Assembly: GCA_947449575.1 (NCBI GenBank)
Contig: CANFRV010000019.1
Location: 1 to 64,000, forward strand
Direction of reading: 5' to 3'
Origin: Flavobacteriales bacterium
GTDB lineage: Bacteria > Bacteroidota > Bacteroidia > Flavobacteriales_D > Crocinitomicaceae
Length of the DNA: 64,000 bases
The stretch's first letter is position 1. Each line of letters begins with the position of its first letter. The notes beneath the pieces were generated by a model. The model did not search any database. It was not told the origin of the DNA and worked only from the letters and a program-made list of their open reading frames with translations. The position numbers were made by a program, and so were the translations under genes. Shown one piece after another: positions 11,017-44,851 of this stretch.

Positions 11017-12300
11017 TTATGCGTGCTTTAGTATCAATTCGGCCAAAATTTTAGTCTGAAAGTTAATCGAAAAATCTTGAACATTTAATAAATCTCGGTT
11101 TAAAAAAGAATTGTTACTCGACTTAGCGAGGATTAATCGTTCTATGTATTGAAACAATTCCATTTCACTTGTTGCCACAAATCCTAGTTTGGATGCTACT
11201 AGTATACGTTCGATTACGTCATTATCGGAACCAAAAAATAATATATTCTTACTGGTCGAAATATATTCAAATAATTTACTCGATGGTATTCCTTGAAAAC
11301 CAACATACGGTAACATTATTAGTAAATCTGCATTATTTTGTATTTGTATGTACTGATCACGGTTTAACCATTCATAGATTACAAGATTAGTTTCAAATCC
11401 TTTAGCAGCATTCAGAACTCGACTTTTTTGTGCTGGATCACTTCCTAAGCCAGCAAAATGTAAAATTACTTTTGTGTTTGAAACTTCAAACTTTTGTTTT
11501 TTTAGAAATAATATAAACGCTTCGATAGGTTGATTATAATACAATGTTCCCGCATACAGTATATTAAATTCTTTGGTCTGTGAAAACTCCGTGCTATTTT
11601 GAATGCTTGTAAAACCATTATAAATAGTATGTCCCTTTACATCTAGAATCCCTTCGATTTGTTTTACGTAAGAATCCGATACACTTGTAAAAAAACTTGC
11701 CGAATTCACCCACTTTTTTTCAAAATAACGGTAATATTTATACAAATATCTATTAAATGGCCTTACTTCCGTAGCCATTTTATTCGTTGTCCAAGAATCT
11801 CTGTAATCCGCAATCCAATGAATGGATAACTTTTTTGCTAACAGATAGCCAAATTTAAATTGAACAAAGGGATTTGCTGAGATAAACACATGCTTTACCT
11901 CTTTGTTTTTTAGCAGATAATCTTTCGAGAAATAATATAGATTGGAAAATGGTACAAAATGATTCGTAAAAGGCTCCGTTATTAATTGAATAAAAGTTAA
12001 TACCTTACTTACAATAGCCAACCATTTATTTTGTTGGGATTTAATAACACATTGATCCCGTAAAGAAGACTTATAGGGTAAATAATATACCTCATAGCCA
12101 TCCCCTATTTTATGCTCAATCGTATTTGATGTTGATTGTAAAAAGGCATTTGGTGTATCATTTTGTTGATTCCAATGGCGTGTAACAACAATGGGATAAA
12201 ACCCAAACTTATGAAAATTAGCAACAATGCCATGAATACGATTCGATGCTGTTAAGGGACATGGCGGAAAAAAATAAGAGAGCACTAAAATTTTACGCAT
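11017..12300 (-). CDS. Glycosyltransferase, GT4-like
   Basis: 427 residues with a GT-B layout. The N terminus MRKILVLSYFFPP and the early S-NRIHG segment match the acceptor domain of GT4 enzymes. A linker with ADYRDSWT sits mid-protein. The C-terminal nucleotide-sugar domain has NILYAGTLYYNQP and GIPSSKLFEYISTSKNILFF, a weak form of the EX7E region (KLFEY). It is one base from the deacetylase-like gene upstream. It is expected to transfer a sugar from a nucleotide donor in the cytoplasm with retention. Confidence 0.82.
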   Translation of the reverse strand: MRKILVLSYFFPPCPLTASNRIHGIVANFHKFGFYPIVVTRHWNQQNDTPNAFLQSTSNTIEHKIGDGYEVYYLPYKSSLRDQCVIKSQQNKWLAIVSKVLTFIQLITEPFTNHFVPFSNLYYFSKDYLLKNKEVKHVFISANPFVQFKFGYLLAKKLSIHWIADYRDSWTTNKMATEVRPFNRYLYKYYRYFEKKWVNSASFFTSVSDSYVKQIEGILDVKGHTIYNGFTSIQNSTEFSQTKEFNILYAGTLYYNQPIEAFILFLKKQKFEVSNTKVILHFAGLGSDPAQKSRVLNAAKGFETNLVIYEWLNRDQYIQIQNNADLLIMLPYVGFQGIPSSKLFEYISTSKNILFFGSDNDVIERILVASKLGFVATSEMELFQYIERLILAKSSNNSFLNRDLLNVQDFSINFQTKILAELILKHA

Positions 12301-12301
12301 A

Positions 12302-13615
12302 TTAGTTATTATCTCTCTTTAAAATTATTGCTTTTACGAATCCCATAATTTCATTTTTTAACACGTTATATTTACTATTAATTGAAAAATGATTATTATG
12401 AATTAATATGGAAAGTTGAAATCCATATCTTTCACATAAATAAATTTTGTGTTTAACGTCTTCTATTTTATTAAAATTGGAATCAGTTATATGTTTTTCA
12501 ACGGTAGTATCCATTAATGAAAGAGGAACTATTTCAATGGGAAATGCCTTTTGATCTATTGGATTCCACATTCTAAAAGTTCTTGTAATTCCTCCTCTAA
12601 ATAATAAAGAATCAAAAAAACAAAAAGAATGTTCTTCTTGTACGCCTAAAACCGAAAGTAAAAATAAATCTTTTTTATAATTTATTTTTAAATAATGAGA
12701 ACGATAGACGGTAGGATAATAACCAAAAATTTGATGAAACCGATTCAATTGCATCCCTAATATTTTAGGGGATTCAAAACTATGTATTGAAGGATGAATC
12801 CCCATTTTAACCCCTTTTAATTGCAATTCTTTAAAAAACTTTTTTTCTAAACTTCTAATTTTATTGTAAAAATCAATATTACCATCAAAAAAAACACCTT
12901 TTTCCGGCAATAAAATAAAAGCAATATTTTCTATTTCGATATTAGTAAAATTAATCTCCTCTTGATTTAATAAAAACATCTCATTATTCAGCATAGGATT
13001 ATCCATTTTAAAAATGGACCAAAAATAACTTCTAATTTGCTTTATAAATTCAATTTTATCATTTCGAAACCAGTAAAAAAACCATTTTGCTTTCTGCAGC
13101 AAAGAAATACCTTGCCAATAATTGATGATATCGTAATCACATGAAAACTGTACTTTAAATGACTTAGAAGGTATTACCTCAAAAGTGAAGGATAAAATAC
13201 GAATCAAAATATCCGATATTGGTATAGATAAGTATTTCTGTAACGAACTACTTAAACTCTTAGAAATAATTCTGCCATAGCTATCTAAATCTATGAACTC
13301 TTGATAACATTCATTCGTGAAATAATAAATCAATTTAAGATAATTCGAATATTCTAATTCTTTCAATATGGAATAAACCAAAGAAATATCCTTTTCTTGT
13401 TCACAAAGATATACAAGCAATTCTAAAACTTTACAATCATCGCTGTCTAAAGACAATGTGTCAAAATCAAAATGTTTTTCAGTATACAGATGTTTTTCAC
13501 TATAAAAAAATAAAACGCCACTTGCATCATTCGTAAAATCAATCTTAAACAGTGGATTTAACTTATAAAAAGCCAAATCATAAAGTAAATAATTAACTTT
13601 GTTATTATCTAACAT
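12302..13615 (-). CDS. DUF7033/polysaccharide-deacetylase-like protein, probably not a canonical deacetylase
   Basis: 437 residues with no clear FDDG or HxxxH site. The C-terminal half carries GIHPSIHSFESP, then YRSHYLKINYKKD, a VLGVQEEHSFCFFDS stretch and FRGGITRTFRMWNP. This order resembles Bacteroidota proteins annotated as polysaccharide deacetylases with an N-terminal DUF7033. The GxHPS and RSHYL elements are from memory of that family. The ATG is only 15 bases from the divergent GT4 ATG at 13631. Function is unknown; it may be a pathway-specific deacetylase relative acting with 10035-11003. Confidence 0.55.
   Translation of the reverse strand: MLDNNKVNYLLYDLAFYKLNPLFKIDFTNDASGVLFFYSEKHLYTEKHFDFDTLSLDSDDCKVLELLVYLCEQEKDISLVYSILKELEYSNYLKLIYYFTNECYQEFIDLDSYGRIISKSLSSSLQKYLSIPISDILIRILSFTFEVIPSKSFKVQFSCDYDIINYWQGISLLQKAKWFFYWFRNDKIEFIKQIRSYFWSIFKMDNPMLNNEMFLLNQEEINFTNIEIENIAFILLPEKGVFFDGNIDFYNKIRSLEKKFFKELQLKGVKMGIHPSIHSFESPKILGMQLNRFHQIFGYYPTVYRSHYLKINYKKDLFLLSVLGVQEEHSFCFFDSLLFRGGITRTFRMWNPIDQKAFPIEIVPLSLMDTTVEKHITDSNFNKIEDVKHKIYLCERYGFQLSILIHNNHFSINSKYNVLKNEIMGFVKAIILKRDNN
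13594..13601 (+). promoter_or_regulatory. Candidate -7 element for the 13631 GT4 gene, inside the opposing gene
   Basis: TAACTTTG fits the Bacteroidota -7 consensus TAnnTTTG and lies 30 bases before the ATG at 13631, within codons near the start of the divergent gene. No good -33 TTG is seen at the right distance, so this is a weak prediction that rests on the tiny intergenic space. Confidence 0.35.
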
Positions 13616-13630: not shown

Positions 13631-14929
13631 ATGACAAAGGTAAAATTTAAAACATTAGTTTTATTCGTTTCTTCCTATCCAAGTCCAATTGGAGAGATGT
13701 TTATTGAAAATGAATTAAAAGTATTACAAGAAAAATTCGGTAAAATTTGGATTATTCAAACAAAATTCTTAGAAAATTACAAGTATCATAGATTATTTAA
13801 GCCAAATAATTCTGAAAAAAAAATAATGTATGAAACCAAAATAAATAAAGCGCGATCAATCGTTCGATTATTTTTTTCTAAATACTTTTTCTCTGAAATA
13901 TCAATGATTTTAAAAACTAATCCAAAAAAATTAGTTAATTACAAAATATACAAGGATTTAATATACTATTACCTAGGTTCTGAAAAAAAAAAGTATTGGT
14001 TAAAAAACTTTATTTTTGACAACAATATCGATTTAAAAACTACCCTTTTCTACACTTATTGGTGTGATGAAAATACGTTTTTATTAACTAGATATAATTT
14101 AGAATCCCAAAAAATTCATTACATATCGCGTCTACACAGTTGGGATTTATATTACGAAAGACATAACTCAAACTTTTTACCTTTTAGAACTATAATTTTT
14201 AATTCTGCTTGGAAAATTTTTCCAATATCAAAAAATGGTAATAACTATATTACAAAAAAACTTCCTAAAGTTGCTAAATCTAAATTTTTCATCTCCTATC
14301 TAGGAGTTGAAAATCTAAAATTAAATAATAGATATACAAATTTATTAACCTTACCTAAAAAACCTTATTTAGAGATTCTTACATTATCATATATATCTCC
14401 TATTAAAGGACTTGAAAAATTAATTAATTCTTTATCCAAAATTTCTGATTTTAAAATACATTGGCACCATATTGGTTGGGGGATTAAAGAATATGAACAA
14501 AAAATTCGATCTGCCTCATTAGAATTAATGGAAAAAAATCAAAACATTAAGATTACATTTCACGGTAAATTATCTCAAATCAAAGTCAAAGAATTTCTAG
14601 AAACTAAAGAAATTGACGTGCTTATTAATTGTAGTGATCAGGAAGGTATACCTGTTACAATGATGGAAGCTTGCAGTGCGGGCATACCTATAATTGCGTA
14701 TCCTGTTGGTGGTATACCTGAAATCGTGAAACATAATTACAATGGTTTTTTAATACCTTTAAATAATTCTGATTTTTCGGAACAAATTAGATCATTTAAC
14801 TATTTAAATAGCGATGAAAAAAAAAGATTATCCAACAATGCTCAAAATTTTCAAAGAAATGAGTTTAATGCAATAGTAAATTATTCAAATTTTTTCGATA
14901 CTATTCAAACAAAAAAATATTTTAATTAA
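13631..14929 (+). CDS. Glycosyltransferase family 4 (first of a tandem pair)
   Basis: 432 residues. The GT-B C-terminal domain shows SYISPIKGLEKLI, a KITFHGKLSQ strand, and the GT4 signature EGIPVTMMEACSAGIPIIA (EX7E, about 337-356) followed by PVGGIPEIV. The N-terminal domain has TYWCDENTFLL and SRLHSWDLYYERH. These are shared at matching positions with the next gene (TYWLDFHTLAL, SRAHNWDVYFER), so the two are paralogues. It is divergent from 12302-13615 with a 15-base gap. It is a predicted cytoplasmic retaining sugar transferase of unknown specificity. Confidence 0.88.
   Translation: MTKVKFKTLVLFVSSYPSPIGEMFIENELKVLQEKFGKIWIIQTKFLENYKYHRLFKPNNSEKKIMYETKINKARSIVRLFFSKYFFSEISMILKTNPKKLVNYKIYKDLIYYYLGSEKKKYWLKNFIFDNNIDLKTTLFYTYWCDENTFLLTRYNLESQKIHYISRLHSWDLYYERHNSNFLPFRTIIFNSAWKIFPISKNGNNYITKKLPKVAKSKFFISYLGVENLKLNNRYTNLLTLPKKPYLEILTLSYISPIKGLEKLINSLSKISDFKIHWHHIGWGIKEYEQKIRSASLELMEKNQNIKITFHGKLSQIKVKEFLETKEIDVLINCSDQEGIPVTMMEACSAGIPIIAYPVGGIPEIVKHNYNGFLIPLNNSDFSEQIRSFNYLNSDEKKRLSNNAQNFQRNEFNAIVNYSNFFDTIQTKKYFN
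13635..13642 (-). promoter_or_regulatory. Candidate -7 element for the 13615 minus gene, inside the opposing gene
   Basis: On the minus strand this reads TACCTTTG, a full match to TAnnTTTG, 20 bases before the minus ATG at 13615 and lying in codons 2-4 of the plus-strand GT4. No matching -33 element is visible. Together with 13594-13601 it suggests crossed divergent promoters. Confidence 0.35.
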
Positions 14930-15015
14930 TAAATTTTAATACTAATAAATTATCTTTTAAGTCTATTTAATTATTTAAAAAGATTTGAATTCCTTAATCA
15001 TTACAAATTAAATCT

Positions 15016-16278
15016 ATGAAATTCAACAGAAAGAATCTATTTATTTATGTTTCTGATTTTTGGCGTGTCGAAGCAACCTTTTTACTTCCTGAATTGGAAA
15101 TTTTAGCAAATAATTTCAATCAAATTAAAATTGTTAATACAAGTGAAGATAGTAGCAAAAGTCTTAAAGATTTAAATTTCAAAAAAGAAAACTATGATTT
15201 ACCAATTAACATTGAATTCTATTCATTACCAAAATCAATTAAACCGAGTTCACTATCTAATTTTTATAAATTAGGTAATTTAGTATTAATCAAAGAATTA
15301 CTAAGATGTATTTGGTTTTTAAAAAAAGTACGATATGCAGCACTAAAAGATGTTATTAGCTATCATTTGAAAGCTCAATTATTTTATGATGCATTAAGAA
15401 AACAAGTATCCCTAGCGGATTGTGATATAATGTATACCTATTGGTTAGATTTTCACACATTAGCACTAATACAAAACAAAACAAGATTAAAGTCTAAAAT
15501 TATTTCTAGAGCCCATAATTGGGATGTGTATTTTGAACGAAGCAAAAGTGGTTACCTCCCTTTCAGAAAAGATTTACTAAGAAATTTAGATTTATTCTGT
15601 CCCATTTCAGAACATGCAAAAAAATACCTTTGTGCAACACTTAAAGAAAGTTTTCAAAATATTCAGGTATCTAAATTAGGAATACATGCTTTAAAACAGT
15701 GTGAAACAATAAATTTCAATATAAACAAACTAAAAATTGTAAGCATTTCCTATATTTCACTAGTAAAACGTGTTGAATTACTATTAGATGCAATGGCACA
15801 TATTCCTTCCACCATAAACATCGAATGGATACACATTGGGCCAGGAAATGATTTAATGCAACTACAAGAGCAAAGTGAAGCTCTGACCAAATTAAAACCC
15901 AATATTGCTATCGAATTTAAAGGATTTATGGATATGAAGGAAGTGCAAGCATTCTTAAAAAATGAAGTAATCGATTTACATATCAATGTAAGCGCATTCG
16001 AAGGGATACCTGTATCCATTATGGAAGCGATGAGTTGTGGTATTCCTTGTATAGCCACAAATGTCGGTGGTAACGCAGAGATAGTAAATGAAAAAAATGG
16101 AGCTTTATTAACAGCTAATCCAACAAAAGAAGAAATTGCGGATGCCATTACTGCTTTCTACAATCTTTCGCAAGAAGTAAGAATCAACAAAAGCAAGCAA
16201 GCAAAACAAACCTGGGAATTAGAGTACAATGCAGCGATAAATTTTGAAAAATTCAGTAAATTATTGACGGAAATGTAA
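15016..16278 (+). CDS. Glycosyltransferase family 4 (second of a tandem pair)
   Basis: 420 residues, paralogous to 13631-14929. Shared landmarks are YTYWLDFHT, ISRAHNWDVYFERS, SYISLVKRVELLL, the GPGND donor-domain loop, and FEGIPVSIMEAMSCGIPC (EX7E, about 329-347) followed by NVGGNAEIV. It lies 86 AT-rich bases after its paralogue and ends nine bases before the convergent gene at 16288. It probably adds a neighbouring or related residue to that added by its paralogue. Confidence 0.88.
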   Translation: MKFNRKNLFIYVSDFWRVEATFLLPELEILANNFNQIKIVNTSEDSSKSLKDLNFKKENYDLPINIEFYSLPKSIKPSSLSNFYKLGNLVLIKELLRCIWFLKKVRYAALKDVISYHLKAQLFYDALRKQVSLADCDIMYTYWLDFHTLALIQNKTRLKSKIISRAHNWDVYFERSKSGYLPFRKDLLRNLDLFCPISEHAKKYLCATLKESFQNIQVSKLGIHALKQCETINFNINKLKIVSISYISLVKRVELLLDAMAHIPSTINIEWIHIGPGNDLMQLQEQSEALTKLKPNIAIEFKGFMDMKEVQAFLKNEVIDLHINVSAFEGIPVSIMEAMSCGIPCIATNVGGNAEIVNEKNGALLTANPTKEEIADAITAFYNLSQEVRINKSKQAKQTWELEYNAAINFEKFSKLLTEM

Positions 16279-19124: not shown

Positions 19125-20009
19125 TCATGAATGTAAAAATAACATTTTAATTTTGTGTTTAAATTCAATTTTAGGATACATAATTAAAGATATAATCAAC
19201 CAATACTTAGATAAAAAAAACATATTTTTATTTCTATAGTAATCTGAAATACCAAAATAACATCTATTTAACTGCTTTTGTTTACAACTTATCGGTATTT
19301 TTGATCCTATTGAATATTTTGTAAATAATTTTGTCAGACCTCTCATACGTTTCAAATAGGCATTAGAATTACTGATATTCACGGAGTTATTATCATGCAA
19401 TTGATACGTTACGGAATGAATTGGTATATAAAAAACCGAGTAAACATCCATAATTACAGTCCATAATACCGTATCCTCAACTACAATACAATCCTCGTCA
19501 AATTTGAAATCATTCAAAATATTTCTTGAAATACATACACGAGCGGGAACAATAGACTCATTTATAAAAAAATCAATTTTATTTAAATCATCACTAGAAT
19601 AATTTCGAGTATGTTTTATATCTTGAGATGAAACTATAGTGGCACCTGTAAAATAAAGCCCTTCAGAGTATTCGTTAATTTTAATATAATTGTAAACTTT
19701 TTCTAAATGATTTTTTTCATTAAAAAAATCATCACTATCTAAAAAAATTAAAAATTGTCCGTTTGCTTTTTCAATCCCATTATTTCTAGCGACTGCTCTT
19801 TCGGAATTAGATTGATAGTAATACGAAACTCTTGAATCATTGCATATTAAAGTTTCAACAACACTGGATGTATTATCTGAAGAGCCATCATCAACTATAA
19901 TGACTTCTAAATTTACAAAGCTTTGCTCTAAAACACTTTCTATAGATTTCTTTAAAAAAAATGCTCTATTATACGTAGGAATAATAATTGAAAAAAAAGG
20001 AGATCGCAT
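19125..20009 (-). CDS. Glycosyltransferase family 2
   Basis: 294 residues. GT2 core: FFSIIIPTYNRAFFLKKSI, VIIVDDGSSDNT (about 35-46), RNNGIEKANGQ, LIFLDSDDFF (metal site about 92-95), and later VVEDTVLW. It is the first gene of the minus run 20009-16288. Upstream is a 310-base AT-rich divergent gap in which no clear minus-strand promoter is seen. Sugar specificity is unknown. Confidence 0.9.
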   Translation of the reverse strand: MRSPFFSIIIPTYNRAFFLKKSIESVLEQSFVNLEVIIVDDGSSDNTSSVVETLICNDSRVSYYYQSNSERAVARNNGIEKANGQFLIFLDSDDFFNEKNHLEKVYNYIKINEYSEGLYFTGATIVSSQDIKHTRNYSSDDLNKIDFFINESIVPARVCISRNILNDFKFDEDCIVVEDTVLWTVIMDVYSVFYIPIHSVTYQLHDNNSVNISNSNAYLKRMRGLTKLFTKYSIGSKIPISCKQKQLNRCYFGISDYYRNKNMFFLSKYWLIISLIMYPKIEFKHKIKMLFLHS

Positions 20010-20319: not shown

Positions 20320-21402
20320 ATGCATTCATCAAATTATAAATTACCTTTGAATTTTAAGGAAGAATGGAAGTATCTTTTCAAAGAAGATAATAAACATGTA
20401 AAAGTAAATTTAAAATCTAAAATAATCAAAAACACTTTTGTAAGTCATTACGGATTAGTTTATAAAAATGGTTTGTTAAATATAAATTGCGCTCCAAACA
20501 TCAAAATAAGTAATTATGATACCAACGTTTATATTCGACATTGGAAAAAAGTTAGTGAACAATTTTTGGTATGTAAATTCGGTAATAGTCTTAAATCAAT
20601 AAATTTAGAACAAGATAAATTATATCTTGTAATACATTCCCCATGGTTTAGTTATTATTTTTGGATTACGGAATGTTTACCAAGATTGCTAAGAACGTTG
20701 GAAAAATTCACAACAAATGATTTTGTTTTGATATATCCTGAAATTTGGAAAAATTTTACTTTCGTTAATGAAACCCTAGAACAAATTCCCAATCTTCAAT
20801 TAAAACTAATTGAAGATGGTGTTCACTTATTTATACCCAAACTTATTTTGACAGACATTAAACCATGGACACCTATGTTCATTCCAAGAGAAGTTATATT
20901 GACACGCGAATTTCTCTTTAAAATATCTAATAAATACAGTAAAGAAACAAAAGAAGATAATTGTCGAGTTTATATTTCAAGATCGGCTGCAAAACGGAGG
21001 AAATTCATCAACGAAGAAGATGTAGAAAACTTATTCAAAAAATACGATTATAAAATTGTTCAAATGGAAGAATTAAGTTTTTTCCAACAAATTCAATTAA
21101 TGAAAAAAACAACTCTTTTAGCGGGACTAACAGGTGCTGGTCTCATAAATATTATGTTTATGAAAGAAAACGGCGCATTCTTAGATCTTTCGAATGAAAG
21201 ATACAAAAACAAAACACAATATAAATTTCACTTTTTTAAATTATGTAATATTTTAAATATTACCTACTCGATTTGTTTTTTCAAAAGTGAAACAACCAAA
21301 AATATTGATCATTGGAGCAACGAAAATTTAATCGCAGATATAAACACCATCGAAAAAGAAATAATTAAACAAATTGAAGATGTTGAAAAACGTAGAAAAT
21401 AA
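20320..21402 (+). CDS. Glycosyltransferase family 61
   Basis: 360 residues with GT61 (DUF563) landmarks: SPWFSYYFWITECLPRLL in the middle, CRVYISRSAAKRRKF and EEDVENLFKKY, then FFQQIQLMKKTTLLAGLTGAGLINIMFM near the C terminus. The LxGxHGAGL element appears here as LAGLTGAGL, where Thr replaces the usual His. It leads a four-gene plus-strand cassette with overlapping starts: GT61, PIG-L deacetylase, formyltransferase and WbqC. The donor sugar is unknown; it may transfer the sugar modified by the following genes. Confidence 0.85.
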   Translation: MHSSNYKLPLNFKEEWKYLFKEDNKHVKVNLKSKIIKNTFVSHYGLVYKNGLLNINCAPNIKISNYDTNVYIRHWKKVSEQFLVCKFGNSLKSINLEQDKLYLVIHSPWFSYYFWITECLPRLLRTLEKFTTNDFVLIYPEIWKNFTFVNETLEQIPNLQLKLIEDGVHLFIPKLILTDIKPWTPMFIPREVILTREFLFKISNKYSKETKEDNCRVYISRSAAKRRKFINEEDVENLFKKYDYKIVQMEELSFFQQIQLMKKTTLLAGLTGAGLINIMFMKENGAFLDLSNERYKNKTQYKFHFFKLCNILNITYSICFFKSETTKNIDHWSNENLIADINTIEKEIIKQIEDVEKRRK

Positions 21403-22024
21403 AAAAATATTAATCTTAGCTCCTCATACCGATGATGGAGAGCTTGGTTGTGGTGGTACAATTTCAAAATTAACATCTGAAAATGCAGATGTATATTATA
21501 TGGTTTTTTCTGTTTGTACACGATCACTTCCTAGAGGATTAAATCCAAACACATTAACCGAAGAAGTTACAAAAGCTACACAAAAACTTGGAATACCAAA
21601 ACAAAATCTTATAATACATGACTATGATGTTCGTGTTTTTAATGAATGTAGACAAAGTATTTTAGACGATATGATAAAGTTCAGAAACGAGCATAATCCT
21701 TCTTTAATATTTCTTCCTGCGAGAAGTGACATTCACCAAGATCATGAGGTAGTTACCAACGAGGGAATAAGAGCATTTAAAAAAAGTAATATACTAGGAT
21801 ATGAAATGCCTTGGAATAACCTAACTTTTGATACAAGCTGTTTTTCAATTCTAAATAAACAAAATTTAGATTGTAAAATGGATGCACTAAATGAATACAA
21901 TTCTCAGAAAAATAGACCTTATTTCAATGAAGACTTCATTAGGTCTCTTGCTATTACAAGAGGGACACAAATCGGGTCAAGCTATGCTGAAGCTTTTGAA
22001 GTAATTCGTATGATATGGGATTAA
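21380..22024 (+). CDS. PIG-L/LmbE-family deacetylase
   Basis: 214 residues from the ATG at 21380; a TTG two codons upstream is unlikely. The metal and catalytic motif is APHTDDGELGCGG (His16, Asp18, Asp19), and the second zinc His lies in SDIHQDHEVV near 118-121. Members remove N-acetyl groups from GlcNAc-type sugars, nucleotide sugars or similar substrates. It overlaps the GT61 end by 23 bases, and the following formyltransferase start overlaps its own end by 10. Context suggests that a freed amino group is then acylated, possibly formylated; this is inference. Confidence 0.9.
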   Translation: MLKNVENKKILILAPHTDDGELGCGGTISKLTSENADVYYMVFSVCTRSLPRGLNPNTLTEEVTKATQKLGIPKQNLIIHDYDVRVFNECRQSILDDMIKFRNEHNPSLIFLPARSDIHQDHEVVTNEGIRAFKKSNILGYEMPWNNLTFDTSCFSILNKQNLDCKMDALNEYNSQKNRPYFNEDFIRSLAITRGTQIGSSYAEAFEVIRMIWD

Positions 22025-22671
22025 AATCAATTGTATTTATATTAAGTTCCCTAAACTTAAGGGAAATTACTTGTTTTGATTACTTTAATAATCTAAATTT
22101 TATTTTCATTAATAATGAAAATGAACTTTATAATTATGTGAAACAATCAAGCATTAAGCAATTTCTTATTACATATAATACGAATGTAATTATCAAAGAA
22201 GAAATATTAGATATATGTGAATGCTCATATAATATACATGCTGCTTCACCCGAATTCCCAGGAAGAGATCCTCATCATTGGGCTATCTATAGAAAAGCTA
22301 GTGAATATGGCGCAACACTTCATGAAATTGACAAACTTGTTGATAGTGGTTCAATAATACAAACGAAATCATTTAAAGTGACAAACGAAGACACACCATA
22401 CTCACTTTTAGAAAAAGCGAATAAAAAGTCTGTAGAACTTTTGAATTGGGTATTAAACGAATTAAATAATCATAATACCATTAAGAAAAACTCTAAGCTA
22501 AAATGGAGTGGAATTAAAACAAAAAGAAGTGATTTTCTAAAAATATGTGATTTAACAAATATTATAGATATACATGAATTTGAATTAAGAATTAAAGCTT
22601 TTTATTCCTCAAAACAACCGAATCTTTTTCTCCATAAATTTAATCACAAATTCTATTTAACAATTAAATGA
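22015..22671 (+). CDS. Formyltransferase-family protein (sugar N-formyltransferase candidate)
   Basis: 218 residues. The Formyl_trans_N active site is visible as YNIHAASPEFPGRDPHHW (Asn73 and His75) and KLVDSGSII (Asp110), the Asn-His-Asp set of 10-formyl-THF-dependent enzymes. The protein is shorter than Met-tRNA formyltransferase and lacks its C-terminal domain, as in sugar N-formyltransferases. It starts inside the deacetylase gene and its stop overlaps the WbqC ATG (ATGA). It probably formylates the amine exposed by the PIG-L enzyme or a related amino sugar; the substrate is unproven. Confidence 0.8.
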   Translation: MGLKSIVFILSSLNLREITCFDYFNNLNFIFINNENELYNYVKQSSIKQFLITYNTNVIIKEEILDICECSYNIHAASPEFPGRDPHHWAIYRKASEYGATLHEIDKLVDSGSIIQTKSFKVTNEDTPYSLLEKANKKSVELLNWVLNELNNHNTIKKNSKLKWSGIKTKRSDFLKICDLTNIIDIHEFELRIKAFYSSKQPNLFLHKFNHKFYLTIK

Positions 22672-23366
22672 AAGTTGCAATTCATCAACCTAATATTTTT
22701 CCATGGCTTGGATATTTTCAAAAAATTCATGCATGTGACACCTTTGTATTCTTAGACCACACAGTTAATAATCGATCTGAATCTAACTATACGAGAAGGG
22801 TAGAATGTTTAAATAATCAAAGTGAAAAATTTTATATTACAATACCGATATTAAAAAAAGAAACAAATTTCATACCATTAAATCAATGGGAAATTAATTG
22901 CAATTCGAATGGTTTTCCAAAAAAAATTCTTGATACTTTGTACTTTTCCTATAAAAAACATCCTTATTTTGAAGATGTGTATCCTCTTTTAGAAAAATAT
23001 TTTGACTTTTCAAACTCAAATTCAATTGTCGAAAAAAATATTGAGTTTATTTCAGCTGTTTGTATTAAACTAAATTTAAATACAAAATTTATAAGAAGTA
23101 GTAATCTTAATATTTCAAATCACAAAACAGAAATGTTGATAAATATTATTTCTTTTCTAGATGGTAAAACATATATATCTGGAAAAGGAGGTGTTACTTA
23201 TCAAGATCCAGAATTATTCAAATTAAATAACATTAACTTAAAAACAATTGCATACAATGATTTTGAATATGAACAAATAAACTCAAAAAAATTTATCCAT
23301 GGTTTATCGATAGTCGATTGTTTAATGAATTTGGGTTATAAAAAAACATTCAAATTAATTTCCTAA
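22668..23366 (+). CDS. WbqC-family protein
   Basis: 232 residues beginning MKVAIHQPNIFPWLGYF, the WbqC signature, with DTFVFLDHTV and NYTRR next and YISGKGGVTYQD toward the C terminus. WbqC-like proteins recur in O-antigen loci; their biochemical role is not firmly established as far as I know. It overlaps the formyltransferase by four bases and ends the plus-strand cassette, convergent with 23428-25206. Co-occurrence with a formyltransferase suggests an amino-sugar role. Confidence 0.88.
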   Translation: MKVAIHQPNIFPWLGYFQKIHACDTFVFLDHTVNNRSESNYTRRVECLNNQSEKFYITIPILKKETNFIPLNQWEINCNSNGFPKKILDTLYFSYKKHPYFEDVYPLLEKYFDFSNSNSIVEKNIEFISAVCIKLNLNTKFIRSSNLNISNHKTEMLINIISFLDGKTYISGKGGVTYQDPELFKLNNINLKTIAYNDFEYEQINSKKFIHGLSIVDCLMNLGYKKTFKLIS

Positions 23367-23427: not shown

Positions 23428-25206
23428 TTAATTATTATAATAAAGCTTAATAAACACTTTATTTTTTACTCGAACTATTTCTTTTAATCTAACTGCAGCT
23501 GAACTAAGTTTATGTATTTTTTTATTAAATGAATAATTATAAGACAAAATAAATTTAGGCCTATATTTATTTAACCATTCCAAAAGGACTTTTTCTTTCG
23601 ATTTATTAGATTTTAAATAAATTATGTCAATCTTACTTAAATTATTATCATGTATTTGAAATATCTCTTTTTTATTCAAACAAATAAAATTAGAAATATC
23701 TAGAGGATAATCTAATCGATTATCATACATTAAAAAATATCCTATATTATTAAATGAATAGGCTATATTAGAATTTAGGTCTAAATCTGAAGTCTCATTT
23801 ATAACTATCCATTTCATAAAACTACTGCTTCGATCACATTTCAAGTATACTTGAACACGTTTTTGGAATACATCTATCTTTTGTTTTCTTACTAAACTTT
23901 GCTCTCCAAAATTAACACAAGAACTAATGAATAAGAAGAACATAATCAATATTTGATACTTTTCAATTTTAAAAATTAAATATATGGAGATAACAACAAC
24001 AAAAACTGAAACTGGATTAATAAGCATTTGAGCTAAATTAGGAGTTCCATGTTTCATGGAAATATAGATCGAAAGTAGTATGATTGTACTAAATAAAACT
24101 ATTATTATAAATCTATTTTCTTTCGATATAAATAAATTATATATGACTAAAATTATAGCTATTAGATATGTTAAAAAAGGTTGTAAGACTAATTCAATAA
24201 AAATTACAAGAATAGACTTGAAAGAATAATTATTTATTTTTGGTGAAGAGTGAAATAAAGCAATGGAGGGAGCGTGAATGTGTAAATACAAAAAATATAA
24301 ATAACTTAAAAGTAAAATAATAAAAAGCAAAAAGTTTTGTTTAAAGCTATATTTTTTTAACATATAAAAAAATATGAAAAATATAAAAACACTACAAAAT
24401 AGAATCGTTGTAGTATAAGTAACACAAATTACTAGTAGTAAAATAATAGATTGAAAATAATTTTTTTTGAAAAAGTCACTAAAAAATAAAGCTACAATAG
24501 GAATTAATATAATTATTTTAGTACTGTAAATGTTTAATCCAGGGCTGAAAATATACCTAGAATAACTTATGTTTAAAAGTGGGGAATCAAAACCAATTAG
24601 TTTCATACTTAACCCAAAAAGAACAAATAAAATTAAAAGGTATTTATATATTTTCGTTTTATTATTATCTCCAACCAATTCAAATAAACATAATATTCCT
24701 TGAGAAAAAAGTATTGGATAGGTTATCAACAGTAAAGAAAAAGAATTAGATATTGAAAAAAATTTAACAAGAAATGCTGAAAACCAAATATCCGAAAAAT
24801 GATATAAAGAAACACCATTTACATTATAATAACCAGAAACTAAACTATGAAAATTTTCCTGACCTGAAAAATATAATTTTTGAGCTAATTTTGCATATAC
24901 AGATAAATCAAAATGTACATTTAAATTAGAAGGATGTATTGGAAACCCTAGGATCGCAAAAAAAAACAAAAAACCCAATAAATAGATTAAAAGTATTTCT
25001 TGTATTTTAATTCGAATTCTAGAAACTGAATAATGTTTTTTGAAATAAAAAAAAAGTAAAAACGGAATTAGTAAACTAATTGAATTTCCTTTCGTGAAAA
25101 TCAAAGCAGTAATAGAACTAATTAAGAGAAATAATACTATCGAAAATCTGTTAAACAAAGCTAAAGAAACAGATTTGGAGAAAAACCAAGGAATAGATTT
25201 AAACAT
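23428..25206 (-). CDS. Large multi-pass membrane protein, unknown (GT-C-like)
   Basis: 592 residues with roughly twelve or more hydrophobic segments to about residue 450, then a soluble domain of about 140 residues. An early loop has NVHFDLSVYAKLAQKL and SGYYNVNGVSLYHFSDIWFSA, with acidic residues and His reminiscent of GT-C first-loop sites, but I cannot assign a family. It is nine bases downstream of the RffA-like gene. It may be a polyprenyl-phosphate-sugar transferase acting in the periplasm. Function is unassigned. Confidence 0.5.
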   Translation of the reverse strand: MFKSIPWFFSKSVSLALFNRFSIVLFLLISSITALIFTKGNSISLLIPFLLFFYFKKHYSVSRIRIKIQEILLIYLLGFLFFFAILGFPIHPSNLNVHFDLSVYAKLAQKLYFSGQENFHSLVSGYYNVNGVSLYHFSDIWFSAFLVKFFSISNSFSLLLITYPILFSQGILCLFELVGDNNKTKIYKYLLILFVLFGLSMKLIGFDSPLLNISYSRYIFSPGLNIYSTKIIILIPIVALFFSDFFKKNYFQSIILLLVICVTYTTTILFCSVFIFFIFFYMLKKYSFKQNFLLFIILLLSYLYFLYLHIHAPSIALFHSSPKINNYSFKSILVIFIELVLQPFLTYLIAIILVIYNLFISKENRFIIIVLFSTIILLSIYISMKHGTPNLAQMLINPVSVFVVVISIYLIFKIEKYQILIMFFLFISSCVNFGEQSLVRKQKIDVFQKRVQVYLKCDRSSSFMKWIVINETSDLDLNSNIAYSFNNIGYFLMYDNRLDYPLDISNFICLNKKEIFQIHDNNLSKIDIIYLKSNKSKEKVLLEWLNKYRPKFILSYNYSFNKKIHKLSSAAVRLKEIVRVKNKVFIKLYYNN

Positions 25207-25214: not shown

Positions 25215-26342
25215 TTATAAGTTATTAAACTGATGTATAACGTAATTGGTATCAATCCCAATATAAAAAGGTAATCTCAATAATACATTAGAGAATTTAT
25301 CTGAGTTATATAACACTCTACCATCATGTTGTTGATGGTAAAAAACACTAGAATGCAAACTTTGATAATGAAATACGGTTTGAATACCCTTCATTTTAAG
25401 GGAACTAATTATAAAATCTCTTTGTTTAGTTGAATTACACAAAATATAAAACATATGTGCATTATTTGAGGAATAATCAGGAATTGTAGGTAATTTAACA
25501 TCTTGATTTTTTGCCCACTCATCTAACCCTTTATAATAATTTATCCATATCTCTTTTCTCAAATTTTGAATAAATTCTATATTTTCAAGTTGCGCCCATA
25601 AAAATGCCGCTATTATTTCTGACGGTAAAAAAGAACTTCCTATGTCTACCCATCCATACTTATCCACTTGTCCTTTAAAAAAAGCAGATCTATTCGTACC
25701 TTTCTCCCAAATTATTTCTGCTCGATCGTTAAAACTCTCATCATTAATTACCAACATACCACCTTCTCCAGAAATTACATTTTTGGTTTCATGAAACGAA
25801 AAAGCGGCTAAGTGACCTATGCTACCTAAGGGTCTTTTAATTCCGTTTTTGCCTGTATAATAATTATCAATCGCCTGCGCTGCATCCTCAATGACAAATA
25901 ATTGATATTTTTCAGCAATTTCCATTATCTTATCCATATCACAAGCAACTCCTGCATAATGTACAGGTATAATAGCTTTAGTCTTGTTTGTAATTAATGA
26001 TTCTATTTGATTCTCATCCACACATGGATTATCAAAATGACTATCTATAAAAACAACTTTTGCACCTCTTAAAATAAATGCATTTACAGTACTTACAAAT
26101 GTGAAACTTGGCACTATAACCTCATCACCAGGCCTAATATCAATTAAAATAGCAGCCATTTCTAGCGCATCGGTACAGGAAGTAGTCAATAAACATTTTT
26201 TAAAACCATATGTTTTTTCGAAATATGATTGACATAGTTTAGTGTATTTTCCGTTACCCGAAATGTGGCCGTTTTTTACCGCATCCTCTATATATTCAGT
26301 CTCTTTACCTGTAAAATAAGGTTTATTAAATGGTATTTTCAT
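25215..26342 (-). CDS. rffA: dTDP-4-amino-4,6-dideoxygalactose transaminase (RffA/WecE-like)
   Basis: 375 residues, usual length. The PLP enzyme fold is clear: the N terminus IPFNKPYFTGKETEYI matches WecE/RffA closely, then TTSCTDALEMAA, DEVIVPSFTFVST, IEDAAQAI, and FSFHETKNVISGEGG with Lys187 as the Schiff-base lysine. Known enzymes make dTDP-Fuc4N from dTDP-4-keto-6-deoxyglucose using glutamate. The ATG shares a base with the LuxC stop (TAATG). It ends cassette A, which also has a WecD-like acetyltransferase. No rmlA or rmlB is present in the window. Confidence 0.9.
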   Translation of the reverse strand: MKIPFNKPYFTGKETEYIEDAVKNGHISGNGKYTKLCQSYFEKTYGFKKCLLTTSCTDALEMAAILIDIRPGDEVIVPSFTFVSTVNAFILRGAKVVFIDSHFDNPCVDENQIESLITNKTKAIIPVHYAGVACDMDKIMEIAEKYQLFVIEDAAQAIDNYYTGKNGIKRPLGSIGHLAAFSFHETKNVISGEGGMLVINDESFNDRAEIIWEKGTNRSAFFKGQVDKYGWVDIGSSFLPSEIIAAFLWAQLENIEFIQNLRKEIWINYYKGLDEWAKNQDVKLPTIPDYSSNNAHMFYILCNSTKQRDFIISSLKMKGIQTVFHYQSLHSSVFYHQQHDGRVLYNSDKFSNVLLRLPFYIGIDTNYVIHQFNNL

Positions 26343-27562
26343 TAGTATATATTAATTTTCCTGGATAAAGTATTAACAAGATCATAACCATCCCAAACAA
26401 CAGAAAACTCTGAAGTTTGTCCTATTGGAACTATCCTATCAACTCCTTTGATTCCATTTTCACTAATTAATTGGGCAAAAATTGATTTCTCTACCCCAAA
26501 ATATGAAATGGTTTGTATGCGAGGGGAATTCAAAATAGTAGATAAACTAATTAAATCTTTTATATATACCTCATTAAAATAACCACAATTTATATGACTT
26601 TCTAATGTTTCAGAATCTAGTTTGTTTAAATTTGCTAAATATATTTCATTTCCGTGCAACGCGTAAGAATCAATTTTTTCATCAATGACTTGCGCATATA
26701 AATAAGTAAGTTTGTCCACGACTGAGGATGCTTGAATAGTATATTTTTTGGACTTTATTATTTTCTTAACAGCCGACCAAAAAATTTGTTTTGAAATTTC
26801 TAATTTTTGTTCATCTCCAGTCCAAACCAAGGTATGAGGTGAGGTACATGCATTTTGATCAAATAAATATGTATCATTAAAAAAATGTAAAGCTAATTTA
26901 TCTATTTCAGTTGTTTGACTCAATTGATCCGTATCTATAATACAAAGTGAATATCTATCACTAAAAGTAACATCAAAAGCGCGAGGAGAAAGATTAGATT
27001 CTCTTATTTTAGCAATTGTTTTGTCACCTCCCCATATAACACGATTTGCACATATGGAAGAAAAATAATCAGTTATTATATTGTTAATCGAATATTTAAT
27101 CAAAATAATTTTACTCAAAACAAGGGTGTATTTTGAATCTCGTCGCATTTCATTCAAAATTTCTATAATTATTTCAACTTGTCTAAAGTTTTTGGAAGGC
27201 AACCTAACAATATTAATATTACCTGCCAAAAGCCCCATAACCAGAGAATAAGCAAAATTTAAAGGAACATTAGAAGGTGCTATATGAAATGTAATACCCC
27301 TTCCTATTTGTAACGTTTTGTCATCATTTATTTTATGTTTAAAAATTTGATCAATGTTAGATCTCCTACAAAAAAATGCAAAACTAGCAACTTCAGGAAA
27401 GATTCGAATTTCTTTATGATTAGTTATTTTTTTTGAAAATGAATTTAAAAAATAAATAACATCAGTATTTAAAATTGACAAAACAGATTCATTTTGAACA
27501 CTTTCCCAATTACTATGTGTCCAAAATTGAATAGACATAAGGTTTTTTATTTCTTCATTCAT
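26342..27562 (-). CDS. LuxC-family acyl reductase (cassette A)
   Basis: 406 residues from the ATG at 27562; a GTG three codons earlier is possible. LuxC hallmarks are IGRGITFHIAPSNVPLNFAYS, GLLAGNINIVRLPSKN, WGGDKTI, and FDQNACTSPHTL with the acylated Cys near 239. LuxC reduces activated acyl groups to aldehydes with NADPH. The first eight bases overlap the LuxE stop. It is a clear paralogue of 51232-52449. In bioluminescence LuxC works with LuxE; here no lux genes are present, so the aldehyde or acyl group probably serves sugar modification. Confidence 0.88.
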   Translation of the reverse strand: MNEEIKNLMSIQFWTHSNWESVQNESVLSILNTDVIYFLNSFSKKITNHKEIRIFPEVASFAFFCRRSNIDQIFKHKINDDKTLQIGRGITFHIAPSNVPLNFAYSLVMGLLAGNINIVRLPSKNFRQVEIIIEILNEMRRDSKYTLVLSKIILIKYSINNIITDYFSSICANRVIWGGDKTIAKIRESNLSPRAFDVTFSDRYSLCIIDTDQLSQTTEIDKLALHFFNDTYLFDQNACTSPHTLVWTGDEQKLEISKQIFWSAVKKIIKSKKYTIQASSVVDKLTYLYAQVIDEKIDSYALHGNEIYLANLNKLDSETLESHINCGYFNEVYIKDLISLSTILNSPRIQTISYFGVEKSIFAQLISENGIKGVDRIVPIGQTSEFSVVWDGYDLVNTLSRKINIY

Positions 27563-28622
27563 ACGTATCACTACATCCTCTTATTTCTGCCGATTTTATT
27601 CGACCTATAACTTTAAAATATTTCCCTTTTCGTCCACACAAACATGTATCTTCTCCTAATAGTACTCCTTCGTCTTCGGTTAACAACGAATGACCAGGAT
27701 AGCTTTTCGGTAATATCGACAGTACTTGAATTATACCTATCTCTCCTATATCTGCTAAAGAAAAATCAGTTGGCCTTCTTATTAATATTTCTGCATAAAT
27801 TGGAGCATGTAAAAATCCAAATTCACATTGCATAAATATAGAACCTGTTTGTTCAGCCATTCCATAATAATCATATATTTTTTTAATGCCAGTAATTTTA
27901 AAAAATTGATTTTTAAACTCTTGATCGGAAATAGAAAGATTTATTAATTTTTTCCAACCACCTCCATGAATCAAAATAGCATTACTTAAATCATAGTGAA
28001 AGGTTGATTGCTGTATTTTTTTTAAAAAACATTCAAAAACAATATACGTAAAACCAAATAATAATATTTGCTTGCCAGAATTCTCTTTTAGAAAATCTAA
28101 TATAACTTGCTCATTTAAATTCATTTCACTGTCTAAAGCATAAACTACTTTTGAAGCGAAAATTGAAAAACCTAATATACCAGCCCCTCTAGCTGAAAAA
28201 TAATTCCTATTTTTAATAACTTCTGGAGAATCTATGATTAGCATTGGTAATCTAGATGGACCTATATAAGAACTTACTATTTTAGTTAAAACTTTTGTTT
28301 GACTAAGAGCAGTATCTTTGTCTAAAAAAATTCGAGAAACTTGTTGATTCGATGTTCCTGAAGAAGTTACTACTTTAACAACATGAATATCTAAAATGGA
28401 TTTTAATTCTCTTTCTTTAAACAATCTAACAGGTAAAAAAGGAACTTCAGAGATATGCTTTAATTTTTCAACATTAAACTTTTGTGCTTTTAAAATACGA
28501 TTATAGGAAGCACAATTAGAGGAATGGTAACTTGTCAAAACACGCAATTCATGCATCATTTTTTCCTTTTTTCGTATTTTATCTAATTCATAAGGTAAAT
28601 ATTCGATTAATTGCTTGTCCAT
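27555..28622 (-). CDS. LuxE-family acyl-protein synthetase (cassette A)
   Basis: 355 residues. The adenylate-forming core shows PFLPVRLFKERELKS, VTSSGTSNQQVSRIFLDKDTA, ARGAGILGFSIFA, HGGGWKKL, DYYGMAEQTGSIF, LLTEDEGV and a C-terminal GRIKSAEIRGCSD. LuxE activates a carboxylic acid as acyl-AMP and passes it to a protein cysteine for delivery to LuxC. The gene overlaps LuxC by eight bases. The closest relative here is 52433-53509, with nearly the same motifs and the same C-terminal GCSDT end. Confidence 0.88.
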   Translation of the reverse strand: MDKQLIEYLPYELDKIRKKEKMMHELRVLTSYHSSNCASYNRILKAQKFNVEKLKHISEVPFLPVRLFKERELKSILDIHVVKVVTSSGTSNQQVSRIFLDKDTALSQTKVLTKIVSSYIGPSRLPMLIIDSPEVIKNRNYFSARGAGILGFSIFASKVVYALDSEMNLNEQVILDFLKENSGKQILLFGFTYIVFECFLKKIQQSTFHYDLSNAILIHGGGWKKLINLSISDQEFKNQFFKITGIKKIYDYYGMAEQTGSIFMQCEFGFLHAPIYAEILIRRPTDFSLADIGEIGIIQVLSILPKSYPGHSLLTEDEGVLLGEDTCLCGRKGKYFKVIGRIKSAEIRGCSDTYE

Positions 28623-28627
28623 ATCAA

Positions 28628-29989
28628 TTATTTAAATAATTCAAAATAGATAATCTTTCCAGATGCATTTCGTGGTATTTTATCTATATACCGAATATCA
28701 AACACACTAGTGTGTAATTTTGTTAAACTAACTACCCAAGTTTTTACATTTTCTAGTTGGTTGGAATCTGTTAAGTAAATGACAAGTTTGTCATCTACCC
28801 CTCCGCAAACTGCATCGATACCTTTCAAATGTAACTTTTCCTCTATATCGGATAAACTAACTCTATTTCCAAATATTTTAACAAATCGATTTTTTCTACC
28901 AATCAAATAATAATATCCATCTTGATCCTTATAACCAATATCACCTGTATACAACTTCCCTTTGTTTTCATCTTCTTTTATTAAATCTTGAACACAAGTT
29001 GCATACCCCATAGATACATTTTCACCATAATAAACAAGTTCACCTTGTGTGTTAGTTGAAGTAATAACTGCATCATTTTCATCTCTTAATTCGAATATTC
29101 CACCTGGTATCGGCACACCAATACTTCCTAATTTACTAAGTGCATTTTCAGAAGGCAAATAACTAATTCTAGCAGTAGCTTCAGTCTGTCCGTACATTGT
29201 AAAATAGTTAATCCCTTTTTCAATTGCATTAAAAACAAACTTTTCTAACAACTTAGGATTCATTTTACCACCAGCTTGCGCTAATCGTATAATTGGATTA
29301 CTTTTCATTTCAAAAAAACGAAGCTTATCTAATATTTCAAAAGTATAAGGTACACCATACAGACTAGTTATTTGGTGTTTGTTTATTAATTGCCAAAATT
29401 CTTTTTGTAAAATCGAATAATCTGTAATTACTATTGATGACTCTGCAATTAAATGGGAATTCAATATAGATAAACCAAAAGAATAATTCAGAGGCAAATT
29501 TGTGATAGCAACATCGGTATTTTTTAAATCTAATGCTTGCTTGATGGCTTTTGCATTACTTAATAAATTTCCATACGAAATCCTAACAAATTTCTTACTA
29601 TTTGTACTGCCAGATGTACTTAATAATAATGCCAAATCTTCACTAATACTGATTTTATCATCAGAATATTTTTTTAATTCTATTCCTTGATTTGATAGTA
29701 TAATCTCGCCTTTTAGTGAATTTGAAATAGAAGAAAAAATATAATTTGGGTTGTATATAGTTAAAATACTTTCCAATTCTTCTATCTCTGTATCGTTCAA
29801 AAGTATTACTACATATCCACTCACAATACAATAAATGTAAAAAAGGATATATTCTGGTCTGTTTTTGATAATAATAACTATTAATGAACGTTTAGAAATG
29901 TTTAATGATTTTAATTTTGTTAAATAATCATCTACATTAAAATCATCTGTAAATTTTAAGTTTTTTATGGCATTATTTAAGTTGAACAT
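28628..29989 (-). CDS. AMP-binding acyl-CoA/acyl-ACP synthetase (cassette A)
   Basis: 453 residues, shorter than typical acyl-CoA synthetases. The adenylation P-loop LLLSTSGSTNSKKFVRISY (about 121-139), the acyl-pocket motif MYGQTEATARISY, the YTGDIGYKDQDGYYYLIGR core and the terminal PRNASGKI with the adenylation Lys are all present. It is expected to activate a carboxylic acid and load CoA or the adjacent ACP. Paralogue: 53513-54859. Five bases separate it from LuxE and seven from the SDR. Confidence 0.88.
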   Translation of the reverse strand: MFNLNNAIKNLKFTDDFNVDDYLTKLKSLNISKRSLIVIIIKNRPEYILFYIYCIVSGYVVILLNDTEIEELESILTIYNPNYIFSSISNSLKGEIILSNQGIELKKYSDDKISISEDLALLLSTSGSTNSKKFVRISYGNLLSNAKAIKQALDLKNTDVAITNLPLNYSFGLSILNSHLIAESSIVITDYSILQKEFWQLINKHQITSLYGVPYTFEILDKLRFFEMKSNPIIRLAQAGGKMNPKLLEKFVFNAIEKGINYFTMYGQTEATARISYLPSENALSKLGSIGVPIPGGIFELRDENDAVITSTNTQGELVYYGENVSMGYATCVQDLIKEDENKGKLYTGDIGYKDQDGYYYLIGRKNRFVKIFGNRVSLSDIEEKLHLKGIDAVCGGVDDKLVIYLTDSNQLENVKTWVVSLTKLHTSVFDIRYIDKIPRNASGKIIYFELFK

Positions 29990-29996: not shown

Positions 29997-30755
29997 CTAA
30001 ATTATAGTCATTCCATCCACTTCTATAATTTGGCCAGAAATGTAACTTGATAAATCAGATCCTAAAAACAAAGTTAAATTTGCTACATCTTCTTTTGATC
30101 CTAATCGATTCATCATTACATTACTAGACAATTTTTGAAGTTTATTTTCACCAATCGAACGTAACATATCTGTATCAATTAATCCAGGAGCAATAGCATT
30201 AACGCGAATATTATATGCAGCTAATTCTTTAGCAGCTGTTTTTGTCATTGAAATTATCGCTCCTTTGGTTGAAGAATAAACTAGTTGACCTACATTACCT
30301 TTGGTTCCAACAATTGAGGAAATATTTATAATGCTACCTGATTTATTTTTCCTCATTAATTTAGTACAGTATTGAATCATATCAATAACAGAAAACACAT
30401 TGACATTAAATTGATTCTGTACCTGACTTCTATCAATCATACCGATAAGCGCATCCTGCATTATTCCTGCATTATTCACTAATATATCAATACTGTTTGT
30501 CAATCCTAATATTTCTTTAAATAATTTAGGTACACTTTCAGCATCTGCCAAATCATAAAAAAAAACAAATAACCTAGTGTTTAAATATGTTTTATAATGA
30601 ATAGTTAATTCATCAAGGTAAGTATTATCTCTTACTACGATAAATACCGTCGCACCATTTGCTAAAAAGGTATCTGTGATCACCTTACCTATCCCTCTAT
30701 TAGCACCTGTAATCAATGCTTTTTTTCCCTCTAAACTTATTTTACTGGACACCAT
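29997..30755 (-). CDS. FabG-like short-chain dehydrogenase/reductase (cassette A)
   Basis: 252 residues with a full classical SDR set: TGANRGIGKVI for NAD(P) binding, NNAGIM, NISSIVGTKG with the catalytic Ser, and YSSTKGAI for the Tyr and Lys, plus the C-terminal SGQIIEVDGM. FabG-type enzymes reduce 3-oxoacyl-ACP to 3-hydroxyacyl-ACP. Its start overlaps the ACP gene by 14 bases, which strongly suggests an ACP-bound substrate, for example making a 3-hydroxyacyl group for the amino sugar. Confidence 0.88.
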   Translation of the reverse strand: MVSSKISLEGKKALITGANRGIGKVITDTFLANGATVFIVVRDNTYLDELTIHYKTYLNTRLFVFFYDLADAESVPKLFKEILGLTNSIDILVNNAGIMQDALIGMIDRSQVQNQFNVNVFSVIDMIQYCTKLMRKNKSGSIINISSIVGTKGNVGQLVYSSTKGAIISMTKTAAKELAAYNIRVNAIAPGLIDTDMLRSIGENKLQKLSSNVMMNRLGSKEDVANLTLFLGSDLSSYISGQIIEVDGMTII

Positions 30756-44850: not shown

Positions 44851-44851
44851 T

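Follow-up and report, generated by a model that had tools for sequence, protein, structure and literature searches.

The 64-kb stretch of DNA analysed here (the window) is part of contig C19 (CANFRV010000019.1) of a Flavobacteriales draft genome (GCA_947449575.1; 3.5 Mb in 69 contigs) and carries a large glycan locus of the ATP-binding cassette (ABC)-transporter type, with a Wzt-like ABC transporter ATPase, many glycosyltransferases, CDP-glucose genes and RfbH. Embedded in this locus is a cassette of four plus-strand genes encoding a GT61-family glycosyltransferase, a PIG-L (LmbE) de-N-acetylase, a compact formyltransferase (FT) and a WbqC-family protein (Table 1). Successive genes overlap by 29, 10 and 4 nt, and the genes on both sides lie on the minus strand; coordinates, Pfam matches and flanks thus bear out a preliminary description of this DNA, which had reported four overlapping genes on the strand opposite to their neighbours. 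With two more plus-strand genes at 13631-16278, the cassette is not the sole plus-strand island in the window, and the G+C content of its genes (24-31%) is not unusual relative to that of the window (29.3%). The same description had framed the pathway in terms of dTDP-sugars, a premise for which no support was found: the only RmlB match over the cut-off lies on another contig (C2), the best matches inside the window reach 88 and 79 bits against a cut-off of 365, and the nucleotide-sugar genes of the window include those for CDP-glucose.

Table 1. The four-gene cassette and other genes of the window referred to in the text
Feature	Position	Strand	Remarks
GT61-family glycosyltransferase	20320-21402	+	360 aa; PF04577 82 bits vs cut-off 27
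PIG-L (LmbE) de-N-acetylase, distinct subfamily	21374-22024	+	216 aa, TTG start; ATG alternative at 21380; PF02585 55.9 bits vs 28.2
Compact formyltransferase (FT), PGRDPHH subfamily	22015-22671	+	218 aa; PF00551 38.9 bits vs 26.1
WbqC-family protein, predicted BshC-like (class I synthetase-like) fold	22668-23366	+	232 aa; PF08889 182 bits vs 21.3
Upstream neighbour of cassette	19125-20009	-
Downstream neighbour of cassette	23428-25206	-	large gene, no Pfam match at thresholds used
DegT-family gene	25215-26342
DegT-family gene (RfbH)	39023-40330
DegT-family gene	60104-61195
GT2 gene	31732-32652		ArnC model 198 bits, under cut-off 529
GT2 gene	42819-43772		ArnC model 110 bits, under cut-off 529

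The FT residues Asn73, His75 and Asp110, described earlier as intact, are indeed so and are invariant in all 16 rows of the alignment. The same holds for the deacetylase, in which APHTDD (containing the HxDD reported before) and HQDH are intact and invariant in 4 of 4 sequences; we take HxDD and HxxH to be the zinc-binding and catalytic motifs of the PIG-L family. Matches of FT in the PDB comprise ArnA (the best), a Qui3N formyltransferase, PseJ and LgrA, and, judged by its family, its donor would be 10-formyl-tetrahydrofolate. FT shares the Formyl_trans_N family and the Asn-His-Asp motif with the sugar N-formyltransferases (the ArnA N-domain, the VioF/FdtF type and PseJ) and with the LgrA domain, and PseJ has a similarly compact size. 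However, it misses the NCBIfam equivalog cut-offs of the known enzymes by far, scoring 49.6 against 777 bits for ArnA, 33.1 against 238 for dTDP-4-amino-4,6-dideoxyglucose formyltransferase and 55.3 against 316 for PRK06988, and it also falls short of the Fmt equivalog by a wide margin. A further difference is that its partner in the cassette is a deacetylase, whereas in the characterised routes the amine that is formylated is the product of an aminotransferase. The PIG-L protein likewise lies under the equivalog cut-offs for BshB1 and BshB2 (53.2 vs 182.5 and 32.2 vs 195.25 bits), and the GT61 protein matches EOGT in the PDB (E 5e-5). The FT subfamily is rare; in the window's order 3 of 299 genomes reach at least 120 bits and the next best match scores 74.

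Beyond the window, 32 loci of the FT subfamily were compiled, 31 from one scan of named genomes (a three-row alignment and two short patterns, with partial recall) and one (L031) from viral contigs; three plasmid loci (L032-L034) were excluded from this count. Eleven of the 32 have WbqC no more than 5 kb from FT, namely those in Bradyrhizobium (L038, L039, L042), alphaproteobacteria or Robiginitomaculum (L043, L046, L048, L049), Opitutia (L044), Marinobacterium (L045), Holosporales (L051) and Sedimenticola (L060), and every one of the 11 carries a deacetylase as well. A CE4-like domain is fused to the C-terminus of FT in six of these loci (L038, L039, L042, L043, L046 and L048) and is encoded by a separate gene of the same cluster in four (L044, L045, L049 and L060); in the remaining locus (L051) a PIG-L protein 39.5% identical to that of the window fills the deacetylase place. 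For the presence of a deacetylase with and without WbqC, a Fisher test that ignores kinship gives 8e-9, and the 11 loci represent about eight lineages, three of the loci being from Bradyrhizobium and two from sister alphaproteobacteria.

Further loci were obtained from the class of Bradyrhizobium, in which the FT profile matches 13 of 210 genomes at E<=1e-22. With G324 and G339 already sampled and G780 left out, ten newly fetched FT loci included another FT-CE4 fusion adjoining WbqC (L173) and nine loci with neither partner. The CE4 profile matches 12 of the 210 genomes, and the ten newly fetched CE4 loci score 89-178 bits, below the fusions; L168 has consecutive genes for CE4, a divergent FT (78 bits) and WbqC, two loci pair CE4 with WbqC without FT (L165 and L166), and in the remaining seven neither WbqC nor FT appears within the region retrieved. 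L172 has a CE4 piece with a distant PIG-L (58 bits) nearby. In G642 the FT and CE4-like genes are on different contigs (L163 and L162), and in G333 (FT locus L047) WbqC and a CE4-like gene (158 bits) are some 1.7 kb apart on a contig that does not carry the FT. In the class of Marinobacterium, a search of 274 genomes for further FT modules returned one, the genome already at the centre of the search.

The CE4-like domain has no Pfam match, PF01522 included, in the seven proteins scanned. Its ten-row alignment displays invariant R-H-D-x-D and H-x4-H motifs, and CE4 deacetylases are the best matches of its profile among PDB sequences, with weak E-values (0.008 and above). An AlphaFold model of the Marinobacterium protein (predicted local distance difference test, pLDDT, 88; predicted template modelling score, pTM, 0.86) retrieved 13 structures with Foldseek at E<=1e-3, all 13 of the CE4 family, and VIA-align yielded Z scores of up to 12.4, with ArnD at 10.4 and the Bordetella O-antigen protein WbmS (3hft) at 9.7. 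WbmS resembles the CE4-like partner in its fold and in a title that refers to O-antigen biosynthesis but is not the closest CE4 entry, and the portions of the WbmS literature consulted hold gene lists and recombination notes only. As modelled, the domain fused to FT is a CE4-fold enzyme. The deacetylase slot beside FT is hence filled by a PIG-L protein (in the window and L051) or by an enzyme of predicted CE4 fold, sometimes fused to FT. That two deacetylase families occupy one slot, and that one of them is joined to FT in a single polypeptide, is the strongest argument that their shared task is de-N-acylation coupled to formylation.

We lean, with limited confidence, towards a reading in which the cassette swaps N-acetyl for N-formyl on a sugar during assembly of a surface glycan. 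The GT61 enzyme would most likely hand on, or act on, an N-acetylhexosamine residue; PIG-L, judged by its family, motifs and neighbours, would remove the acetyl group to leave a free amine; FT, by family and motifs, would formylate an amine of the residue with 10-formyl-tetrahydrofolate; and WbqC would be a regular partner acting on the same amine, probably as a ligase-like enzyme of the BshC fold. The cassette can be viewed as a variant of known N-acyl-sugar chemistry. The preliminary description had proposed deacetylation followed by formylation; the part that stands is the recurrence of the deacetylase-FT module (6 fusions in 32 loci, L173 and the gene neighbourhoods), and the occupation of one slot by PIG-L and the CE4-like fold supports the proposed sequence, of which we infer the substrate and the order of steps.

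Additional insight comes from the PIG-L subfamily itself, whose profile detects 29 genes in 28 of the 299 genomes of the order with scores of at least 262 bits, the runner-up reaching 85 bits; one genome (G302) has two copies in tandem. Of the 27 such genomes apart from the window's (L092-L118), 18 encode a hexapeptide protein on the same strand within three genes of PIG-L, as counted with a profile that was seeded by six of these same loci. The hexapeptide sets near PIG-L consist of one or two genes. Seven sampled PIG-L neighbours are hexapeptide proteins by Pfam, one of them with a sub-threshold LpxD domain, and these neighbours probably transfer acyl groups. The arrangement fits the removal of one acyl group and the addition of another and resembles that of the cassette, but with a hexapeptide protein in place of the formyltransferase. 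Given that the usual neighbour in the order is another probable acyl-adding enzyme and FT the exception, the comparison favours a general acyl swap, and it speaks against a special link of this PIG-L subfamily with formyl groups alone.

These neighbourhoods also bear on a scheme modelled on the Arn pathway, in which FT puts a protecting formyl group on an amine and, once a transferase has moved the sugar, the PIG-L or CE4 enzyme strips that group off again. Among PDB structures FT matches ArnA best, ArnD, itself a CE4-fold enzyme, matches the CE4-like model, and the two GT2 genes of the window match the ArnC model below its cut-off. Yet a formyltransferase and a deformylase in one polypeptide would be self-defeating, most genomes of the order with a PIG-L of this subfamily encode it close to a hexapeptide protein, and 22 CE4 structures rank above ArnD, although Z scores within 1 of each other count as tied. 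We regard such transient formylation as improbable.

Several observations weigh against the acetyl-to-formyl swap. Profiles run on all reading frames found neither a CE4-like nor a PIG-L protein in any of the 21 FT loci without WbqC, which indicates that FT can also work outside the deacetylase-WbqC module; 10 of the 21 end at a contig edge within 4 kb of FT. A Pfam tally of the surroundings of these 21 loci covered 99 of 129 listed proteins and the 25 commonest of 104 families, excluding two long tail-like open reading frames (ORFs), the near-duplicate locus L053, one 448-aa ORF and short ORFs, and rarer deacetylase families would be invisible to it. The CE4 profile was made from ten of the loci in which it was then counted. 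WbqC is absent from four other FT genomes tested (G321, G336, G338 and G339), and in G116 and G126 an FT scoring 125-126 bits occurs without a PIG-L of this subfamily. The GT61 profile found no member in any of the 32 FT loci or in the order's 27 PIG-L loci outside the window. Finally, the arrangement of the genes is compatible with FT acting either ahead of the deacetylase or after it.

The same 21 loci, lacking both WbqC and these deacetylases, speak for a view of the cassette as a mixed insertion, with FT formylating a 4-amino sugar supplied by a DegT-family aminotransferase of the locus while PIG-L and WbqC have roles in other steps. Three DegT-family genes, one of them RfbH, are indeed present in the window (Table 1), and the synthesis of ordinary N-formyl sugars involves no deacetylase. 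The presence of a deacetylase in 11 of 11 WbqC-bearing FT loci and the existence of FT-CE4 fusions, however, run counter to a mixed insertion of this kind, which we consider the least probable of the schemes weighed here.

The preliminary description had also made co-occurrence of the four genes in other genomes a point to be checked, and here the outcome is divided. The four-gene order was found in no genome searched other than that of the window, and GT61 is missing from the FT loci as noted above; all four components nonetheless co-occur, dispersed rather than in a single operon, in four of four related Bacteroidetes drafts (G322, G323, G326 and G327). The FT tree, whose support values were not read, places the window FT beside those of these four drafts (L036, L037, L040 and L041), two of them Flavobacteriales, where FT adjoins genes for guanylate kinase and YicC and stands apart from glycan genes. 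A GT61 homologue 44-45% identical to that of the window lies directly upstream of a PIG-L gene (53-54%) among glycosyltransferase genes (L066-L069), making GT61 the probable partner of the deacetylase, and elsewhere in each genome a full-length WbqC (169-190 bits, 34% identical) stands beside ABC-transporter genes. The four drafts are close relatives rather than four independent cases, which lessens what they add to the swap reading. The parts of the cassette have a recurring association, and their exact order is unique in the data searched.

Sequence searches found no solved relative of WbqC, and its AlphaFold2 model (pLDDT 88, pTM 0.87) gave no Foldseek match at E<=0.001. VIA-align, for which the best Z is typically 7 to 8 with models that lack a clear Foldseek match, aligned 215 of 232 residues with BshC (4wbd; Z 13.5, root mean square deviation 3.2) and also retrieved class I lysyl-tRNA synthetase (LysRS, Z 11.7) and tyrosyl-tRNA synthetase (Z 8.3). 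The WbqC-BshC alignment starts near the GQQ motif of BshC, and by eye the spacing of HQ-x8-YF in WbqC matches that in the genome's own BshC, which is encoded on another contig. A profile-profile comparison shows no relation (hhalign probability 0.5%), hmmsearch gave nothing usable, and Pfam assigns WbqC alone with no PF10079; for this reason WbqC is not filed under BshC. The model nonetheless suggests that WbqC may work like BshC. Among 37 direct same-strand neighbours of 20 WbqC genes in the order are 7 PglD-type proteins, 7 ABC ATPases, 7 GT2 enzymes and 2 DegT proteins, and DegT-like aminotransferase genes occupy position +2 in four loci (by eye); enzymes that produce or acylate sugar amines are thus frequent neighbours of WbqC. 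The assisting role assigned to WbqC in the preliminary description is upheld insofar as WbqC is a regular partner in FT-deacetylase loci, and it can be sharpened to that of a protein of predicted BshC-like fold that may be an amine ligase.

This possible kinship in fold calls to mind the biosynthesis of bacillithiol (BshA-BshB-BshC) and mycothiol (MshA-MshB-MshC-MshD), where, as in the cassette, a glycosyltransferase and a PIG-L-type deacetylase are combined with a BshC-like or class I synthetase-like protein. As in mycothiol, where the N-acyl cap is added last, the cassette would provide a cap, albeit formyl instead of acetyl. These pathways differ from the cassette in yielding small thiols rather than residing in a glycan locus and in using GT4-type glycosyltransferases as opposed to GT61, and WbqC is not a sequence member of BshC. 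In the part of a review that we consulted, the mycothiol steps are given as those of a glycosyltransferase, a deacetylase, a cysteine ligase and an acetyltransferase (PMC4360819). The correspondence of these steps with the cassette leads to a bolder, aminoacyl version, in which WbqC attaches an amino acid to the amine exposed by the deacetylase, and the amino group of this amino acid is in turn formylated by FT. Spelled out as a glycan-borne counterpart of mycothiol synthesis, GT61 would add an N-acetylhexosamine, PIG-L would deacetylate it, WbqC would ligate an amino acid and FT would cap the product.

The aminoacyl version draws on the match of the WbqC model to BshC and class I LysRS, on neighbours of WbqC that make or acylate amines (deacetylases, PglD-type proteins and the DegT genes at +2) and on the steps described for mycothiol and bacillithiol (PMC4360819). 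According to the excerpt consulted, marine bacteria possess sugars that bear formyl, N-acetylglycyl or N-acylalanyl groups, so that bacterial sugars with N-acylated aminoacyl groups do exist (PMC3210612). Against this stand the lack of a WbqC-BshC profile link and of any significant result from Foldseek alone, as well as the FT-CE4 fusions, which suggest that FT acts straight on the freed sugar amine; moreover, the available text of the same review states that, as of 2015, BshC itself had yet to be demonstrated to act as a ligase in vitro (PMC4360819). On balance the aminoacyl version is unlikely, and the full glycan-borne plan is just as tentative. Were that plan true, WbqC could be the enzyme hitherto missing for the N-acyl-aminoacyl amino sugars (such as N-acetylglycyl or N-acetylalanyl derivatives) of many O-antigens; searches found no literature on acetylglycyl together with O-antigen gene clusters.

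N-formyl sugars have so far been explained by routes in which an aminotransferase is followed by a formyltransferase. The deacetylase-FT-WbqC module, if the swap reading is true, would constitute a second general route, by which an N-acetyl sugar could be re-acylated, and the BshC-like fold suggests a testable role for WbqC, a family widespread in glycan loci. Our searches found no literature linking a formyltransferase with PIG-L and polysaccharides, and none joining PseJ with formyltransferase; at the level of paper listings, work on N-formyl groups or formyltransferases with a deacetylase concerned mainly Brucella, Francisella and unrelated topics. In the portion seen, a Salinibacter paper mentions one formyltransferase gene. 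As far as paper listings show, no literature addresses the function of WbqC, which the consulted part of a 2017 paper calls functionally uncharacterized (PMC5532660).

Other occurrences of these gene families deserve mention. Contig C12 of the window's genome encodes another full-length WbqC (L070 7817-8524), adjoining DegT-like and GNAT-like genes (by eye). The Holosporales locus (L051 5835-9691) has two FTs, the second of which is fused to a GNAT acetyltransferase domain, overlaps WbqC and lies near PIG-L. A second, lower-scoring formyltransferase is located upstream of the FT-WbqC pair in the same glycan cluster in L043 (3197-3961), L046 (3222-3986) and L045 (4836-5741), and L182 and L183 also have a lower-scoring formyltransferase (80 bits). 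Standalone FTs of the subfamily adjoin large phage-tail-like genes in L031 (363-1076), L035 (about 7878-8540) and L047 (3482-4018); the neighbour in L031 is DUF2793 by Pfam, and such neighbours are presumably gene-transfer-agent genes. Phage records gave no FT match. For the three distant plasmid matches, the annotation shown places no WbqC, PIG-L or polysaccharide deacetylase next to FT, and one (L033 3305-4021) is carried by the small plasmid pLO2 of Vibrio anguillarum serovar O2.

Elsewhere in the window, two copies of a set comprising a LuxC-like reductase, a LuxE-like acyl-protein synthetase and an AMP-ligase are present (26342-29989 and 51232-54859), the first adjoining the DegT aminotransferase gene at 25215-26342 and a gene for a FabG-like short-chain dehydrogenase/reductase (SDR) at 29997-30755. 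These sets look like acid-to-aldehyde-to-amine chemistry for a glycan substituent. Large ORFs of the glycan locus at 7760-9103, 11017-12300 and 12302-13615, like the downstream neighbour of the cassette, have no Pfam match at the thresholds used. Genes for dehydroquinate (DHQ)-synthase-like, SDR, HpcH-type aldolase, thiamine pyrophosphate (TPP) enzyme and split transketolase-like proteins, located at 43774-50581 and 57597-59379, raise the possibility of an unusual sugar or cyclitol pathway.

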